Positions 1 to 39,817 of a stretch of 39,817 bases of DNA are shown piece after piece. A program made the translations under genes and the position numbers. The DNA lies in the IMG/VR virus record IMGVR_UViG_3300047666_000621, positions 1 through 39,817 of that record; one strand, written 5' to 3'. Position 1 is the first letter of the stretch, and each line of letters opens with the position of its first letter. Under the pieces are notes generated by a model. That model was not told the DNA's origin and ran no database searches. It was given only the letters and a program-made list of their open reading frames with translations. Source of the DNA: a virus.

Positions 1-1010
1 ATCGACGGAAACTGTCGCCAGTGCATCCCGGCAAACGTGTCAGATTTTGAGCTGTGGAAATGGCCGGTATAGAAATAGTGAAAGTCGCTCACTCCATACA
101 ATGCGCGGAAAGTGTGCTTGATATTCTCGGCCATCTTTTCAGGCTTAACCCCGTGCCCATGATGCGAACAAATAAACAGTCGCCCGCGCTGAAATATTCC
201 ATAGTGGCTTTCCTGGCCGTTAATCGTCACGCGCGGATTGTTGGCGTATCTCTGCCCTAGCGCAATCAGAACCGGCTGGGGAATGTTGGGGTCGTGGTTG
301 CCGGGGTTTGATTCGTAGATAACCTCGGCGTGAGTTGTCAGCGCCATTTCGATTTGCCAGATAGCGACCTCTATCCCAAGCAACAGATTTTCGCCGTGAC
401 TGCCCTCGACCTTCAGTTTGTGCAGGCTCCGCACTGTCACGTCGCGGTCGTCGTTAGCGTGGAGCCGGTCGCCGTTGTCCAGAATTAGGGCTGTGTCTGC
501 TGGGGATAAGCTGCCATGAAGCTCTCCGAAACCCTCTTTGACGCGCTTAACCGCTATCTCCCGGTTGTAAGCTCTGTGCCCTTTGCCCTCGGATATAACC
601 GCGCCAAGGTGAAAATCTGAGTTTGCGAATAGGTTAACGATATTTTCGCGGGGCCGGTTGCCAAGGATAATTTCGGGGATGGCCAGAACGCCGCCTAGTA
701 GCGTCACGATGCGCTCGGCCACAGCTTCAGGCGCGGCAGGTTCTGGCGCTAGTTGTAGCGAATAGGATATGTCGCCCGCTGGCGTGGTCTTGAGCCAAGC
801 CGTCTTTGGAACCATGCCCGTTCCTAGCGCCTTCATCGCCGCTTGAATGGCCGGATCTTGCCCCAGTATTTTTGACGCGCGTGTCACGCGAGAATTGAGC
901 GTTTCGCGGGCTAGACCTAGAGCCTTCGCAGCTTTGGTGACTGTGCCGTGCGCTTCAACAGCGTCTAGGGCTTCTTGGGCTAACTCAGGGGATAGGGGTG
1001 GCGTCGGCAT
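1..1010 (-). CDS. Metallophosphoesterase, left-edge copy (3' truncated by window)
   Basis: This is the first copy of the calcineurin-like phosphoesterase that is complete at 38355-39482. The gene starts at 1010 and runs off the left edge, so the last ~39 codons are missing. The reading frame is intact and keeps the metal-site motifs (DFH, GD, GNHD, HHGHG, GHFH) and the N-terminal helix-turn-helix-like segment. Most differences from the other copy are at third codon positions, so both copies appear to have been under protein-level selection. The upstream DUF6378-like gene overlaps its start by 26 bases. Substrate is unknown; phage members of this superfamily include nucleases and phosphodiesterases. 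Confidence 0.9.
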   Translation of the reverse strand, partial: MPTPPLSPELAQEALDAVEAHGTVTKAAKALGLARETLNSRVTRASKILGQDPAIQAAMKALGTGMVPKTAWLKTTPAGDISYSLQLAPEPAAPEAVAERIVTLLGGVLAIPEIILGNRPRENIVNLFANSDFHLGAVISEGKGHRAYNREIAVKRVKEGFGELHGSLSPADTALILDNGDRLHANDDRDVTVRSLHKLKVEGSHGENLLLGIEVAIWQIEMALTTHAEVIYESNPGNHDPNIPQPVLIALGQRYANNPRVTINGQESHYGIFQRGRLFICSHHGHGVKPEKMAENIKHTFRALYGVSDFHYFYTGHFHSSKSDTFAGMHWRQFPS

Positions 1011-1269
1011 TTGAGAGTTCTCCAGCAAGGGCCATATAGCCCGCACCATCGACATAGCTGTCATGGTGTGGTCCGTTCACTAATCGTGCAATTTTAAGCC
1101 ACGCCATGCAAAGCGCAACCTGCTCGGGGGAAACGTCCGCGCCGAGAATGACCTGCCAGCCTGTCGCTATGCGCTGGAAGTTTTCCGATGGGGGGCCATA
1201 TGACGCCGCGCGGGGGCCGCAAACTAAGTCCGTCGCCTCCGCTAAGATATGGGCGCGCTGCATCTGCAT
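985..1269 (-). CDS. DUF6378-like small protein
   Basis: The body (ILAEATDLV..., then SYGPPSENFQRIATGW, later a Met-Ala-Leu-rich C-terminus) matches my recollection of the phage DUF6378 domain, about 80-90 residues of unknown function. The chosen start is the ATG at 1269. An in-frame TTG at 1326 would add 19 residues, but those bases also encode the end of the preceding gene. No clear ribosome site is visible, so coupling to the upstream gene is likely. It occupies the slot where the right-end copy of this region carries an unrelated 49-codon gene, so it is a strain-variable cassette. Confidence 0.7.
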   Translation of the reverse strand: MQMQRAHILAEATDLVCGPRAASYGPPSENFQRIATGWQVILGADVSPEQVALCMAWLKIARLVNGPHHDSYVDGAGYMALAGELSNADATPIP

Positions 1270-1289
1270 CGGGGGGGATTGGGTCGCGC

Positions 1290-1505
1290 TCAAGTTAGCT
1301 CGCCTAGCGGCACGACTTCGTGGCAAATCGTGTTGGTCTTGGCGACAGGCGCACCTCGCTCTAGGAACGCATCAAGCGCTTCCTGCGCGCGCGGCTGCAA
1401 CTGCGCTTCGCACGCGGCCATGGATTCATATGAGTTTTGGCTGTGGAATGATGCAGGGTCAGCAACGCCAACCAGCCAGACGAGAAGTATCATTTCAAAC
1501 ATCAC
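1290..1505 (-). CDS. Small exported or membrane-anchored protein, lysis region
   Basis: A 71-residue protein with an N-terminal hydrophobic stretch (MILLVWLVGVA) that looks like a signal peptide or anchor. A charged, Gln/Ala-rich body with two cysteines follows. Its start overlaps the stop of the o-spanin-like gene in an ATGA, so it belongs to the lysis operon. The 3' half of a homologue is visible at the right edge (39679-39817). I do not recognise the family; a lysis-accessory role is inferred from position only. Confidence 0.65.
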   Translation of the reverse strand: MMFEMILLVWLVGVADPASFHSQNSYESMAACEAQLQPRAQEALDAFLERGAPVAKTNTICHEVVPLGELT

Positions 1506-2738: not shown

Positions 2739-3018
2739 CCCAGACCCTTAGAGACGCATTGTCTCGGCTCATCATTTCCTTGGCAACAACCTCCTGCATG
2801 GCGTGGCTGTCAGTGTGGTCAACGCCCCACTTCTTGGCCCACTCGTAAAACATTTTCATGGGGACCAGCCCAACTAGCTTGTTATCCCCCGCGCCGTCTA
2901 GGCCCGCGCTTTTTAGGGCCTTGGCCTTCTTGAGGACTGGATTCCAATCGTGCGATTGCTTTATCAATATCCGCCCTGTCACCTCGTCGTATGTCATCGA
3001 CTCGCTTAATTTGCTCAT
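2725..3018 (-). CDS. Conserved phage protein of unknown function
   Basis: A 97-residue soluble protein beginning MSKLSESMTYDEVTGR. It contains a DWNPVLKKAKALKSAG segment and a KLVGLVPM...WAKKWGV segment that I recall from small genes beside capsid genes in other phages, with no defined role. The ATG at 3018 follows a GAGG-like site. It overlaps the preceding gene by 137 bases in a different frame, which is long but plausible here. Confidence 0.65.
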   Translation of the reverse strand: MSKLSESMTYDEVTGRILIKQSHDWNPVLKKAKALKSAGLDGAGDNKLVGLVPMKMFYEWAKKWGVDHTDSHAMQEVVAKEMMSRDNASLRVWDGNF

Positions 3019-7474: not shown

Positions 7475-7656
7475 GATTTACCTTCTGTCCTTGAATTATC
7501 GGGTGCCAGTGCGGATATGACCATCATGGAAATAACAACAATCATCGCAGGTGTTTTGGCAGGCAATTTCCTAACGGTCGGAATTATGCTTAACATTCGC
7601 GAGCTAGACGTTCCGAACCCGTCCCTTAAAAACATTGTGGCGCTGTTGCTATTCAT
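7471..7656 (-). CDS. Small gene filling the gap between ejection protein and portal
   Basis: A 61-residue frame that exactly bridges the ejection-protein gene and the portal gene, with 4-base ATGA overlaps at both ends. That spacing is the main support for it being real. The product has a short hydrophobic segment (AMIVVISMMVISALA) near residues 37-51 and a Ser/Arg-rich remainder, with no recognisable family. An antisense 65-codon frame with two hydrophobic segments covers 7517-7714 and is the competing reading. Confidence 0.5.
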   Translation of the reverse strand: MNSNSATMFLRDGFGTSSSRMLSIIPTVRKLPAKTPAMIVVISMMVISALAPDNSRTEGKS

Positions 7657-9779
7657 CGGCGCGGCCCTTGCAGTAACCCTCGCGTGCGCTCAGTCACTGT
7701 CGGAAGTGCTGTAAGCCCAGCGCCAAGAGTCACTGCGTTGACGCCTTGGCCTGTGTTGGCTGGCAGCGGGTTTGAAGTAAGATTTCTTATGATGCTATCC
7801 AAAGCCGCCGCGCCATTCGGGCGTGACAGAACGTCAGCCAACTGACCGCGCACGTCGTCGCTAAGGCGCGCGATTGAAGCATCATCTGACCCAAGCCCGC
7901 GCCGTCCAATATCCCGCACGCCTTCAATGGGCTGTAGGTTGCGAACCGCGCCGGGGGCAACCTCTTCCGAAACAATCCGATCCGCAGCTAGGCGCGGTTG
8001 AGTTGCGCTGTTCATGGCAACGCGCGACCGAAGACCGAGCGCAGCACCAGCTTCCCGAAGCTGTTTTAGCACCTCTGGGGCCTCGTCACCAAACAGCGCT
8101 TGCAGTTTAAGCTTTGAATTGGGGCTAGATGTTTGGCTAAACAATGAAAGCGCTTGCCGCGCGTCTACATTCTGGTCAGATGCTACCGCCCGCACATTCC
8201 CCATAACGTGGTCGATTTGGCTGCGCACCCCTTGGCGCATGGCCCGCAACTCAGCAGGCGTGGCGTCGGCTATGGCTTCGGCCATGTCTTCAATAGTGGT
8301 GTTCGTTGCCAAAAGTGTTTGGCCCGTCCGCACGGCTGCACGGCTGCGAATGTCTGTTGATGCCGCTTGCAGCGCCTCGTCGTATCCCGGCACCGCATCA
8401 GCTAACGCCCCGCGCAGGTCACGCGCTACACGGTTGGCAAAAGCGCCATCGGGTGACATTCGGCCCGTGATAGAGTCCTTACTGGCCTCGGCCACCTCGT
8501 CAAAGGCGCGCTTGATATAGTCCGCCATCATAGTGTTGGGCATTTCGTCAAACACTACAGACCCGTCGTCACCAATTTGCGCCATGATTTGCTGGTTTGG
8601 GAAGCCGTCATAAATCATACGGTCGTTCGCTTGCTGCACAGCGCTCCGCACAAGGCCGCGTGGCGCGCGGGTCAGGATGTCCTCAACAGCCCGACCTTCT
8701 GGCGTGTCGTAGTTGATACGCGTGTCATATGCTTTTTGATAAAGGGGGTTAATTATGGGACGCGCAGAAGCCGCCCGCGCCGATTGGTTGGCAAGGGGCG
8801 GGATGCTCGGACCCATGCGCCCGCCGTCAAGCGCGTCAAGAACGCCCGCCGTTGTCGCTTCTGCGCGCGCATCAACTCGGCCACGCGCCAAGGCCGCGCC
8901 AGGTGTTGGGCTGCGCATAGCTGCATCAAGTGACCCCCCCGCACCGGGGCTGACATCTGCCAACATGGCGCTAGGCCCAGCTTGGTCAAGCGCTGCCCGC
9001 ATTGCTGTGGGGTCTTCCTCGCCAATAACGCGGCCCAATACTCGGCCCGTCTCTGGCGTTACATTTAGCGCCGCGCCTATTTGGTTGCCGACTCTTGAAT
9101 TTCTCGCCGCGCCTTGGCCTGCGCGGTATACCTGCCCAACACCCGCCGCCACTCCCGGAATCGCGCCTCCAAGCAATCCACCGAACAGCCCCCCAATTCC
9201 ACCGGACGCCGCGCGGTTTTGAAAGCCGCCCTCGCCCTCCATAAATCCTTGCGTAGCGCCTGCGCCAGCGCCCAGCCCCATTCCGCGCATAACTCCGCGT
9301 GCAAGTGTTGGGGCCGCACGAATCGCGCCAACGCCAAGCGCTGCCGGGGCAATCGCGCCGAACAGGTCAGCGGACAATCTGGCCGCGCCCGACATGTTTT
9401 CCTCGTTCTGGCGGAATCTCTCTAATTCGTCCCCGTATGCGCGGCCTGTTAGCGCGCTCGTGACCGCTGCGCTCGCCTCGTCGCCCACGGTGCCCAGCGT
9501 CATGCTTTCGCCCGCGCGGTTAAGCCAAGTGCCAAAATCTTCGCCGTATGATTGCACGCCGTCGTCGCTGCCTATGATGTTGTCAAATAGGGCTGCACCC
9601 AAGCCACGCTCTGGCGGCGCTGCGACTGGCTGCTCTAGCCCGCCCTGTGCCCCCGCAGATTGCCTGCGCTGCAATTCAGCAACTGCCTGCGCCCGTGTTG
9701 GGCCTGATTGCATGGTTGGCGCGCTTGCCGCTGCTGCTCTGCGGTCAAGTTCGGCCTGTGCTTGTGCTGCTGTTGTCAT
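7653..9779 (-). CDS. Internal virion / DNA-ejection protein
   Basis: A 708-residue, Ala/Gly/Arg-rich protein. Around residues 135-220 there is a Gly/Ala-rich amphipathic-hydrophobic region (GAIAPAALGVGAI, GGIGGLFGGLLGGAIPGVAAG) of the kind found in ejection proteins that cross membranes. Long helical stretches follow. Large genes of this composition near the portal usually encode proteins packaged in the head and injected with the DNA, as P22 gp7/gp16/gp20 are. No catalytic motif is visible. Confidence 0.75.
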   Translation of the reverse strand: MTTAAQAQAELDRRAAAASAPTMQSGPTRAQAVAELQRRQSAGAQGGLEQPVAAPPERGLGAALFDNIIGSDDGVQSYGEDFGTWLNRAGESMTLGTVGDEASAAVTSALTGRAYGDELERFRQNEENMSGAARLSADLFGAIAPAALGVGAIRAAPTLARGVMRGMGLGAGAGATQGFMEGEGGFQNRAASGGIGGLFGGLLGGAIPGVAAGVGQVYRAGQGAARNSRVGNQIGAALNVTPETGRVLGRVIGEEDPTAMRAALDQAGPSAMLADVSPGAGGSLDAAMRSPTPGAALARGRVDARAEATTAGVLDALDGGRMGPSIPPLANQSARAASARPIINPLYQKAYDTRINYDTPEGRAVEDILTRAPRGLVRSAVQQANDRMIYDGFPNQQIMAQIGDDGSVVFDEMPNTMMADYIKRAFDEVAEASKDSITGRMSPDGAFANRVARDLRGALADAVPGYDEALQAASTDIRSRAAVRTGQTLLATNTTIEDMAEAIADATPAELRAMRQGVRSQIDHVMGNVRAVASDQNVDARQALSLFSQTSSPNSKLKLQALFGDEAPEVLKQLREAGAALGLRSRVAMNSATQPRLAADRIVSEEVAPGAVRNLQPIEGVRDIGRRGLGSDDASIARLSDDVRGQLADVLSRPNGAAALDSIIRNLTSNPLPANTGQGVNAVTLGAGLTALPTVTERTRGLLQGPRR

Positions 9780-26807: not shown

Positions 26808-27011
26808 TCATGATGCGTCGCAAGCGTTATTAGCCATCGTTGTGGCGATAGTGATAGTGTGACCCGCGCGACGCGCGGCAACAAAAGCGGCACGGAAAGG
26901 CAAGTAGCGCGCCTCCTCCTCTTCCTGTCGCTGCGCCTCATACTTTGCAGCGCGACGTGCGGCTTCCTTGCGCATCTTTGTTTCGACGGGCCATTCGTAA
27001 AGTGCGGTCAT
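26808..27011 (-). CDS. Small charged helical protein under a shared promoter element
   Basis: A 67-residue protein with a long charged helix (KEAARRAAKYEAQRQEEEE). Its leader AAAGGAACCGAGACA before the ATG is nearly the same as that of the pentapeptide gene at 36344. A 17-base promoter element is also shared with that gene. It is therefore likely to be switched on with it and heads the 27.0-24.0 kb operon. No domain recognised. Confidence 0.65.
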   Translation of the reverse strand: MTALYEWPVETKMRKEAARRAAKYEAQRQEEEEARYLPFRAAFVAARRAGHTITIATTMANNACDAS

Positions 27012-27051
27012 TGTCTCGGTTCCTTTGGCTGCGTTTGTGTTCCTGAGATAT

Positions 27052-36310: not shown

Positions 36311-36343
36311 GGGGATAGAAACTCAAACGAAGGAACCGAGAGA

Positions 36344-36880
36344 ATGGAATTTGACATTACCAGCCGATGGACGGGCAAAGCAAAGTTTACCGCCGAGATT
36401 GACTGCGCAGACGACGCGCCCCGCTCGACTAAGATTGGTCTGGCGGTCAAGTGGGCCAAGAAGTGGGGCGTCGACCTGAGCGGTGCCGACCTGCGCGGTG
36501 CCAACCTGCGCGATGCCAACCTGAGCTGTGCCAACCTGAGCGGTGCCAACCTGCGCGGTGCCGACCTGAGCGGTGCCAACCTGCGCGGTGCCGACCTGAG
36601 CGGTGCCAACCTGCGCGGTGCCGACCTTCTTTGCCTTGGCAACATGGCCGAAATTCGCACTATGCAGATTGAAAAGTGGATGGTTGGATACACCGCCACA
36701 GAATTGCAAATTGGGTGCCAGCGCCACGCAATCGAGAAGTGGGCCAAGTGGGACACCGATGCTGGCCGTAAGTGGGTATCTTCTATGGATACCGCAGCCC
36801 CAGAATGGGCGAATCGCAACCTAGCGCTAGTCTTGGCATTGATTGAGGCAAACCCAGCAATCAAAGGGGGCGAAGCATGA
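36344..36880 (+). CDS. Pentapeptide-repeat protein
   Basis: A 178-residue protein. Residues ~44-93 hold ten A(D/N)LxG pentapeptides ([13 protein letters not shown]...), enough for about two and a half coils of a right-handed quadrilateral beta-helix. A ~85-residue C-terminal domain follows ([19 protein letters not shown]), a phrase I recall from other phage pentapeptide proteins. Some members mimic DNA and inhibit gyrase (MfpA, Qnr); this one is short for that. A GAAGGAACCGAGAGA leader precedes the ATG. Confidence 0.85.
36473..36622 (+). repeat. Ten 15-base tandem repeats in the pentapeptide gene
   Basis: Ten units of the form RACCTGNGCGGTGCC run without interruption. The last four units are two identical 30-base copies (36563-36592 and 36593-36622), with one change in the 30 bases before. 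Such base-level uniformity points to recent expansion by slippage or recombination. Confidence 0.9.
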
Positions 36881-38051: not shown

Positions 38052-38380
38052 GCAAGCGAACCGTTTTAGTTTATCACGACTGCGCCAATTCATCGCAAGA
38101 GCGCATCCCGCGGCCCGTTTCGCTAGTGTGCGAGCCTTGGGAAACGCCAGATGCGGAAGCCCCACAGACGCTACAGGAGCGCGTGCTAGGGGGGCTCAAC
38201 AGCGTGCCCCGCACAGCTAGGACCATCGCGGGAAATGTGGGCTTAGACGTGCGCTCAGCGCGCAACGTGCTAGTAGAACTGTGCCGCAAGGGCGAGTGCG
38301 TCATGAGCCCGCCAAGAAGCAACCTAGCGAATCTTTATCGCCGCGCGGGAAGCCTCACAGCAACAGCTCCACCTCTTTAA
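38048..38380 (+). CDS. Winged-helix-like protein
   Basis: A 110-residue protein. Residues ~43-85 (ERVLGGLNSVPRTARTIAGNVGLDVRSARNVLVELCRKGECV) read as a winged helix with recognition helix at VRSARNVLVELCRKG. The N-terminal ~35 residues are an independent polar segment. It ends 26 bases inside the convergent metallophosphoesterase gene. A DNA-binding accessory protein. Confidence 0.65.
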   Translation: MSKRTVLVYHDCANSSQERIPRPVSLVCEPWETPDAEAPQTLQERVLGGLNSVPRTARTIAGNVGLDVRSARNVLVELCRKGECVMSPPRSNLANLYRRAGSLTATAPPL

Positions 38381-39482
38381 ACCGCCCGCGCTTGGCCGTA
38401 TCAAACGAGGCTCCGTATATCCCGCTAGTGTCCACAAAGCTCATAATCTCTTCGTATTGAGTCGTGGACACTATCGACGGAAACTGTCGCCAGTGCATCC
38501 CGGCAAACGTGTCAGATTTTGAGCTGTGGAAATGGCCGGTATAGAAATAGTGAAAGTCGCTCACTCCATACAATGCGCGGAAAGTGTGCTTGATATTCTG
38601 AGCCATCTTTTCAGGTTTAACCCCGTGCCCGTGGTGCGAACAAATAAACAGCCGCCCGCGCTGAAAAATGCCGTAATGGCTTTCTTGCCCGTTAATCGTC
38701 ACGCGCGGATTGTTGGCGTATCTCTGCCCTAGCGCAATCAGAACAGGCTGGGGAATGTTGGGGTCGTGGTTGCCGGGGTTTGATTCATAGATGACCTCGG
38801 CGTGAGTTGTCAGCGCCATTTCGATTTGCCAGATTGCGACCTCTATCCCAAGCAACAGGTTTTCGCCGTGAGACCCCTCAACCTTGAGCTTGTGCAGGCT
38901 CCGCACTGTCACGTCGCGGTCGTCGTTAGCGTGGAGCCGGTCGCCGTTGTCCAGAATTAGGGCTGTGTCTGCCGGAGATAAGCTGCCATGAAGCTCGCCG
39001 AAACCCTCTTTGACGCGCTTAACCGCTATCTCTCGGTTGTAGGCTCTGTGTCCCTTGCCCTCAGATATGACTGCGCCAAGGTGAAAATCTGAGTTTGCGA
39101 ATAGGTTAACGATATTTTCGCGGGGCCGGTTGCCAAGGATGATTTCGGGGATAGCCAAGACGCCGCCAAGCAAAGCTACAATGCGCTCGGCCACAGCTTC
39201 AGGCGCTGCGGGTTCGGGGGCTAGTTGTAGCGAATAGGATATGTCGCCCGCTGGGGTGGTCTTGAGCCAAGCCGTCTTTGGAACCATGCCCGTTCCCAAG
39301 GCTTTCATCGCCGCTTGAATGGCTGGATCTTGCCCCAGTATTTTCGACGCGCGGGTCACGCGGGAATTGAGCGTTTCGCGGGCTAGACCTAACGCCTTCG
39401 CGGCCTTGGTAACTGTGCCGTACGTTTCTACGGCGTCTAGGGCTTCTTGAGCTAGTTCAGGGGATAGGGGTGGCGTCGGCAT
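38355..39482 (-). CDS. Metallophosphoesterase with N-terminal HTH-like segment
   Basis: A 375-residue protein (start at the ATG shared by both copies; a GTG at 39512 adds ten residues). Residues ~15-45 look like a helix-turn-helix (TVTKAAKALGLARETLNSRV). The phosphoesterase domain has DFH (132-134), GD (180-181), GNHD (237-240), HHGHG (283-287) and GHFH (316-319), the five metal-site motifs of calcineurin-like enzymes. The HTH suggests it acts on DNA, as SbcD/Mre11-type nucleases do; that is inference. Confidence 0.88.
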   Translation of the reverse strand: MPTPPLSPELAQEALDAVETYGTVTKAAKALGLARETLNSRVTRASKILGQDPAIQAAMKALGTGMVPKTAWLKTTPAGDISYSLQLAPEPAAPEAVAERIVALLGGVLAIPEIILGNRPRENIVNLFANSDFHLGAVISEGKGHRAYNREIAVKRVKEGFGELHGSLSPADTALILDNGDRLHANDDRDVTVRSLHKLKVEGSHGENLLLGIEVAIWQIEMALTTHAEVIYESNPGNHDPNIPQPVLIALGQRYANNPRVTINGQESHYGIFQRGRLFICSHHGHGVKPEKMAQNIKHTFRALYGVSDFHYFYTGHFHSSKSDTFAGMHWRQFPSIVSTTQYEEIMSFVDTSGIYGASFDTAKRGRFKEVELLL

Positions 39483-39508
39483 TGTGAAAAACCTTTGCGT
39501 GTCGCCGG

Positions 39509-39658
39509 TCACTCATTCTTGAGCGCCTTGGCAGCTTCTAGGATAACCTGCGGCAGGCGGCGCGCTGACACGCGGCAAACCTCGACACCATCTACCCACG
39601 TCACAAGGTCAGACCCGTGCGCCGTGTGGTAGACAGCGGGCGCGCGCTGCATCTGCAT
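39509..39658 (-). CDS. Small protein replacing the DUF6378 gene in this copy
   Basis: A 49-residue frame: MQMQRAPAVYHTAHGSDLV, then TWVDGVEVCRVSARRLPQV and a short helix. Its first six residues equal those of the DUF6378-like gene in the left copy, after which the two are unrelated. A TTG at 39715 would extend it into the upstream gene. Its stop is adjacent to the possible GTG start of the metallophosphoesterase. Unknown function. Confidence 0.55.
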   Translation of the reverse strand: MQMQRAPAVYHTAHGSDLVTWVDGVEVCRVSARRLPQVILEAAKALKNE

Positions 39659-39678
39659 TGGGGGGGATTGGGTTGCGC

Positions 39679-39817
39679 TCAAGTCAGCTCGCCTAGCGGC
39701 ACGACTTCGCGGCAAATCGTGCGCGTCCTAGCAACAGGCACGCCCTCATCTAGGAGCGCGTCAAGCGCCTCCTGCGCGCGAGGCTGCAACTGAGCTTCGC
39801 ACGCGGCGAGGGTGTCA
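39679..39817 (-). CDS. Right-edge partial copy of the small exported protein
   Basis: The last ~45 codons of a homologue of the gene at 1290-1505, cut by the window edge. It ends VPLGELT as in the other copy. Differences include several amino-acid changes, so this part has diverged more than the metallophosphoesterase. Confidence 0.7.
   Translation of the reverse strand, partial: DTLAACEAQLQPRAQEALDALLDEGVPVARTRTICREVVPLGELT

Follow-up and report, generated by a model that had tools for sequence, protein, structure and literature searches.

The stretch of DNA analysed here, hereafter the window, is the 39,817-nucleotide IMG/VR record IMGVR_UViG_3300047666_000621. Both of its ends carry a metallophosphoesterase gene read on the minus strand. 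The right-hand gene is complete, while the window edge truncates the left-hand one, whose C-terminus is missing. The name given to this gene in a sequence-only reading of the window fits a match to the PHROG family "DNA repair exonuclease" (phrog_704, E 8e-44). In addition, the motifs DxH, GD, GNHD and GHFH are present in the sequence, and a Pfam search returned a sub-threshold HTH only. The features of the locus are given below, A and B denoting the two strains that we propose to be represented.

1-127, no strand: candidate junction 127-mer (assembly-graph branch vertex), first pass; identical to 38473-38599, first mismatch at 128
3-1013, minus strand: metallophosphoesterase/SbcD-like exonuclease, putative allele A, truncated by the window edge; 97% identical to the single copy of relative G002
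985-1326, minus strand: small DUF6378 gene upstream of the metallophosphoesterase, putative strain A; 1012-1252 are 89% identical to relative L005
38355-39482, minus strand: metallophosphoesterase locus, putative allele B, complete; reading frame open to 39512, with the ATG at 39482 as likely start (MPTPPLSP...)
38473-38599, no strand: candidate junction 127-mer, second pass after a full lap of 38,472 bases; exact identity, and G002 also closes by 127
38473-39817, no strand: putative redundant 1,345-base overhang, second lap on strain B, as judged from the end homology, the 127-base junction and the comparison with G002
39487-39641, minus strand: unrelated stretch at the same place in putative strain B, where another small ORF has its C-terminal end; strain-specific gene replacement
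39642-39817, no strand: putative strain B continuation to the contig end, 86-88% identical to 1253-1428

A BLASTN comparison of the first and last 4 kb of the window aligned 1-1014 with 38473-39487 at 93% identity (947/1017), and a second collinear block, 1253-1418 with 39642-39807, at 88%. This confirms that the window ends are homologous yet diverged, as had been claimed from the letters alone. Two points were absent from that first description: the homology starts with an exact 127-base stretch, and it resumes past an unrelated stretch (1014-1252, 239 bases, versus 39487-39641, 155 bases) to continue almost to the final bases of the window. Because positions 1012-1252 are 89% identical to a relative and the other end carries a different small ORF, strain B would be a genuine mosaic strain rather than a product of sequencing error. 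An exact direct terminal repeat was rejected, since no prefix of the window equals its suffix over 16 to 3000 bases. IMG/VR likewise called no end repeat for this record, in which one side of the overlap lies inside the contig.

The two versions of the gene show 69 differences, distributed over third (58), first (10) and second (1) codon positions, in line with the earlier description of them as mostly third-position. The sequence-only reading had also suggested counting synonymous and non-synonymous changes. There are 63 of the former and 6 of the latter, leaving 4 of 336 residues different (dS 0.31, dN 0.008, dN/dS 0.025), and we read this divergence as allele-type. A linear genome with two diverged, separately selected metallophosphoesterase copies near its ends, that is, an imperfect terminal duplication, would also account for two open copies under strong purifying selection and for a divergence well above sequencing error. 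However, the first copy is truncated right at the contig edge, the exact start has the length of the assembler k (see below), and the homology reaches nearly the last base of the window, as expected of a second lap.

The exact identity between 1-127 and 38473-38599 extends over exactly 127 bases, the first mismatch being at base 128. Elsewhere in the alignment 7.8% of positions mismatch, and the exact runs reach at most 83 bases. In a simple independence model, which is a rough guide only since mismatches cluster, the chance of at least 127 exact bases at an arbitrary end is about 3e-5, and that of exactly 127 about 3e-6. Certain podoviruses carry terminal repeats of hundreds of bases, and the window ends might accordingly be taken for true direct terminal repeats whose copies diverged within one genome lineage. 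Yet replication and packaging normally keep terminal repeats identical, the divergence begins here after exactly 127 bases, and the diverged stretch lies inside a gene with a gene replacement adjoining it. We consider the chance of such repeats to be close to nil.

The length of the junction points to the assembler. A JGI data set was assembled by metaSPAdes with "-k 33,55,77,99,127", so that 127 is the largest k (PMC11584781); for the present record, we infer the assembler and its k from the 127 bases of the junction. The ends of the window thus share exactly the top JGI k, as a de Bruijn maxK overlap does. In simulations with within-population variation, most metaSPAdes contig ends at a break had exactly maxK bases in common (COBRA, PMC10914622). 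Similarly, when two circular strains were put into a toy graph with k=127, its unitigs opened with the shared 127-mer and parted one base later. The window is like the overlaps described for COBRA in that a contig end shares maxK bases with another place at a repeat or variation branch (PMC10914622). Unlike in those cases, its path would have re-entered its own starting vertex and continued along the other allele. Strain A does not share the final 127 bases of the contig, and the junction does not explain the stop at 39817.

The closest complete relative, IMG/VR 3300046534_000753 (G002, 42,820 bases), has ends that share exactly 127 bases. Hence, the same k closes it into a circle of 42,693 bases. 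It carries one metallophosphoesterase copy (7582-8713), encoding a protein 97% identical to that of the window, and all 21 window blocks tested lie in the same circular order in G002, once round. Window 38355-39487 corresponds to G002 7582-8713, and window 1-1503 to an overlapping place, G002 7700-9184. As window position 38355 falls at 7582 and position 1 at 7700, the joint between 38.4 kb and 1 kb of the window is continuous in G002, via its single gene copy. Unlike the window, G002 closes cleanly on one allele, and it differs in its circle length and in an unrelated structural module. It is listed without a repeat class despite the identity of its ends, L017:1-127 and L016:4694-4820, a label that may need checking.

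The same joint is found in a second contig, 3300047667_000821, where a single gene links both window ends. A metallophosphoesterase homologue was detected in 7 of 25 related phage records and in two copies in none of the seven; in one record, G003, the two matched stretches are close neighbours and can belong to a single 390-residue frame. The podovirus isolate Octadecabacter Antarctic DB virus 2 (OANV2; MW805364, PMC9239159), with a circular record of 39,241 bases and many structural proteins 75-89% identical to those of the window, also has one distant homologue. This protein, gp36, is however only 25% identical, and its gene is on the opposite strand relative to the capsid gene. It is annotated "DNA polymerase subunit" (MW805364 25059-26294), an annotation that may mislead. 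None of the terminal 60-mers recurred internally in the 84 loci searched from relatives, most of which are fragments or flank-limited. Exact strings of the strain B end or of the junction had no match that would represent a contig of strain B in IMG/VR, from which records very near the window may have been withheld.

Overall, the locus is single-copy in closed relatives with a continuous joint, and two complete copies were seen neither in one molecule nor in the relatives. With the gene single-copy in its relatives and the first copy cut by the edge, the earlier proposal of two selected copies or an imperfect terminal duplication is left unsupported, and we regard it as highly improbable. The other proposal made at that stage, that two co-existing strains were used to close the circle, is favoured by the 127-base junction, the collinear single-copy G002 and the allele-type divergence. 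The window is thus almost certainly one lap of a circular phage map followed by a second-lap tail from a co-existing strain, an assembly artefact.

According to this two-strain explanation, the window would be a contig assembled from short metagenome reads. The phage, a relative of podovirus OANV2, would have a circular map of 38,472 bases that may stand for a physical circle, a circularly permuted genome or a genome with terminal repeats. Inside the metallophosphoesterase gene, two strains of the sample would have at least 127 bases in common and differ beyond them on one side, reads of strain B presumably being present in the same sample. The assembly path would start at the shared 127-mer on strain A, make one full round of 38,472 bases, re-enter the 127-mer and exit on strain B for 1,218 more bases, tracing a rho-shaped path. 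Because of this path through the shared 127-mer, both "copies" would be alleles of a single locus. The remainder of the circle is known as one consensus only, with no strain assignment for its parts.

The switch between alleles could instead be a natural recombinant junction in a hybrid phage, both alleles being present, rather than a path choice of the assembler. Mosaicism is seen among these phages, in that a gene is replaced in strain B and a whole structural module sets the window apart from G002, which would suit such a hybrid. A recombinant would nevertheless still hold one copy of the locus per genome, and the assembler alone suffices for the 127-base length; we give this explanation almost no weight.

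Modular mosaicism is strong across the phage. Many early genes, the lysis gene and the metallophosphoesterase show about 75-97% protein identity to G002 (loci L015, L016 and L017), with 2525-23800 set off from the remaining window. Most structural genes (about 3.2-19.2 kb) have 75-89% protein matches to OANV2 and none in G002, which has a different capsid and portal set. A pentapeptide-repeat protein (36344-36880) consists of about ten 15-base units with non-repeat N- and C-terminal parts. A 35-base leader ending in AAGGAACCGAGANAATG precedes two ATG codons, at 27009-27043 on the minus strand and 36312-36346 on the plus strand, and could be an early promoter or ribosome-binding leader common to both. 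A near-identical 27-base stretch (2817-2843, minus strand; 36450-36476, plus strand) encodes WAKKWGVD in two otherwise unrelated proteins. No tRNA genes were found in the window. A host search with the capsid protein matched only three small binned contigs (Rhodobacteraceae, Rhizorhabdus and Oceanospirillaceae).

On the strength of these comparisons, the window reads as a circular map of 38,472 bases, opened within the metallophosphoesterase gene and followed by 1,345 bases of a second lap on strain B. Without those last 1,345 bases, the genome is probably complete at about 38.5 kb. The end homology is an ordinary assembly artefact, neither a genomic feature nor novel. For curation, this means that the record, although classed as linear, probably represents a complete genome with a circular map of about 38.5 kb, to which a redundant 1.3-kb tail from a second strain is attached. 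Near-circles like this one evade exact terminal-repeat tests, and a terminal k-mer recurring inside the contig could reveal them. Finally, the two alleles give a small glimpse of natural variation at a single phage locus, with its dS of 0.31 and an adjoining gene replacement.
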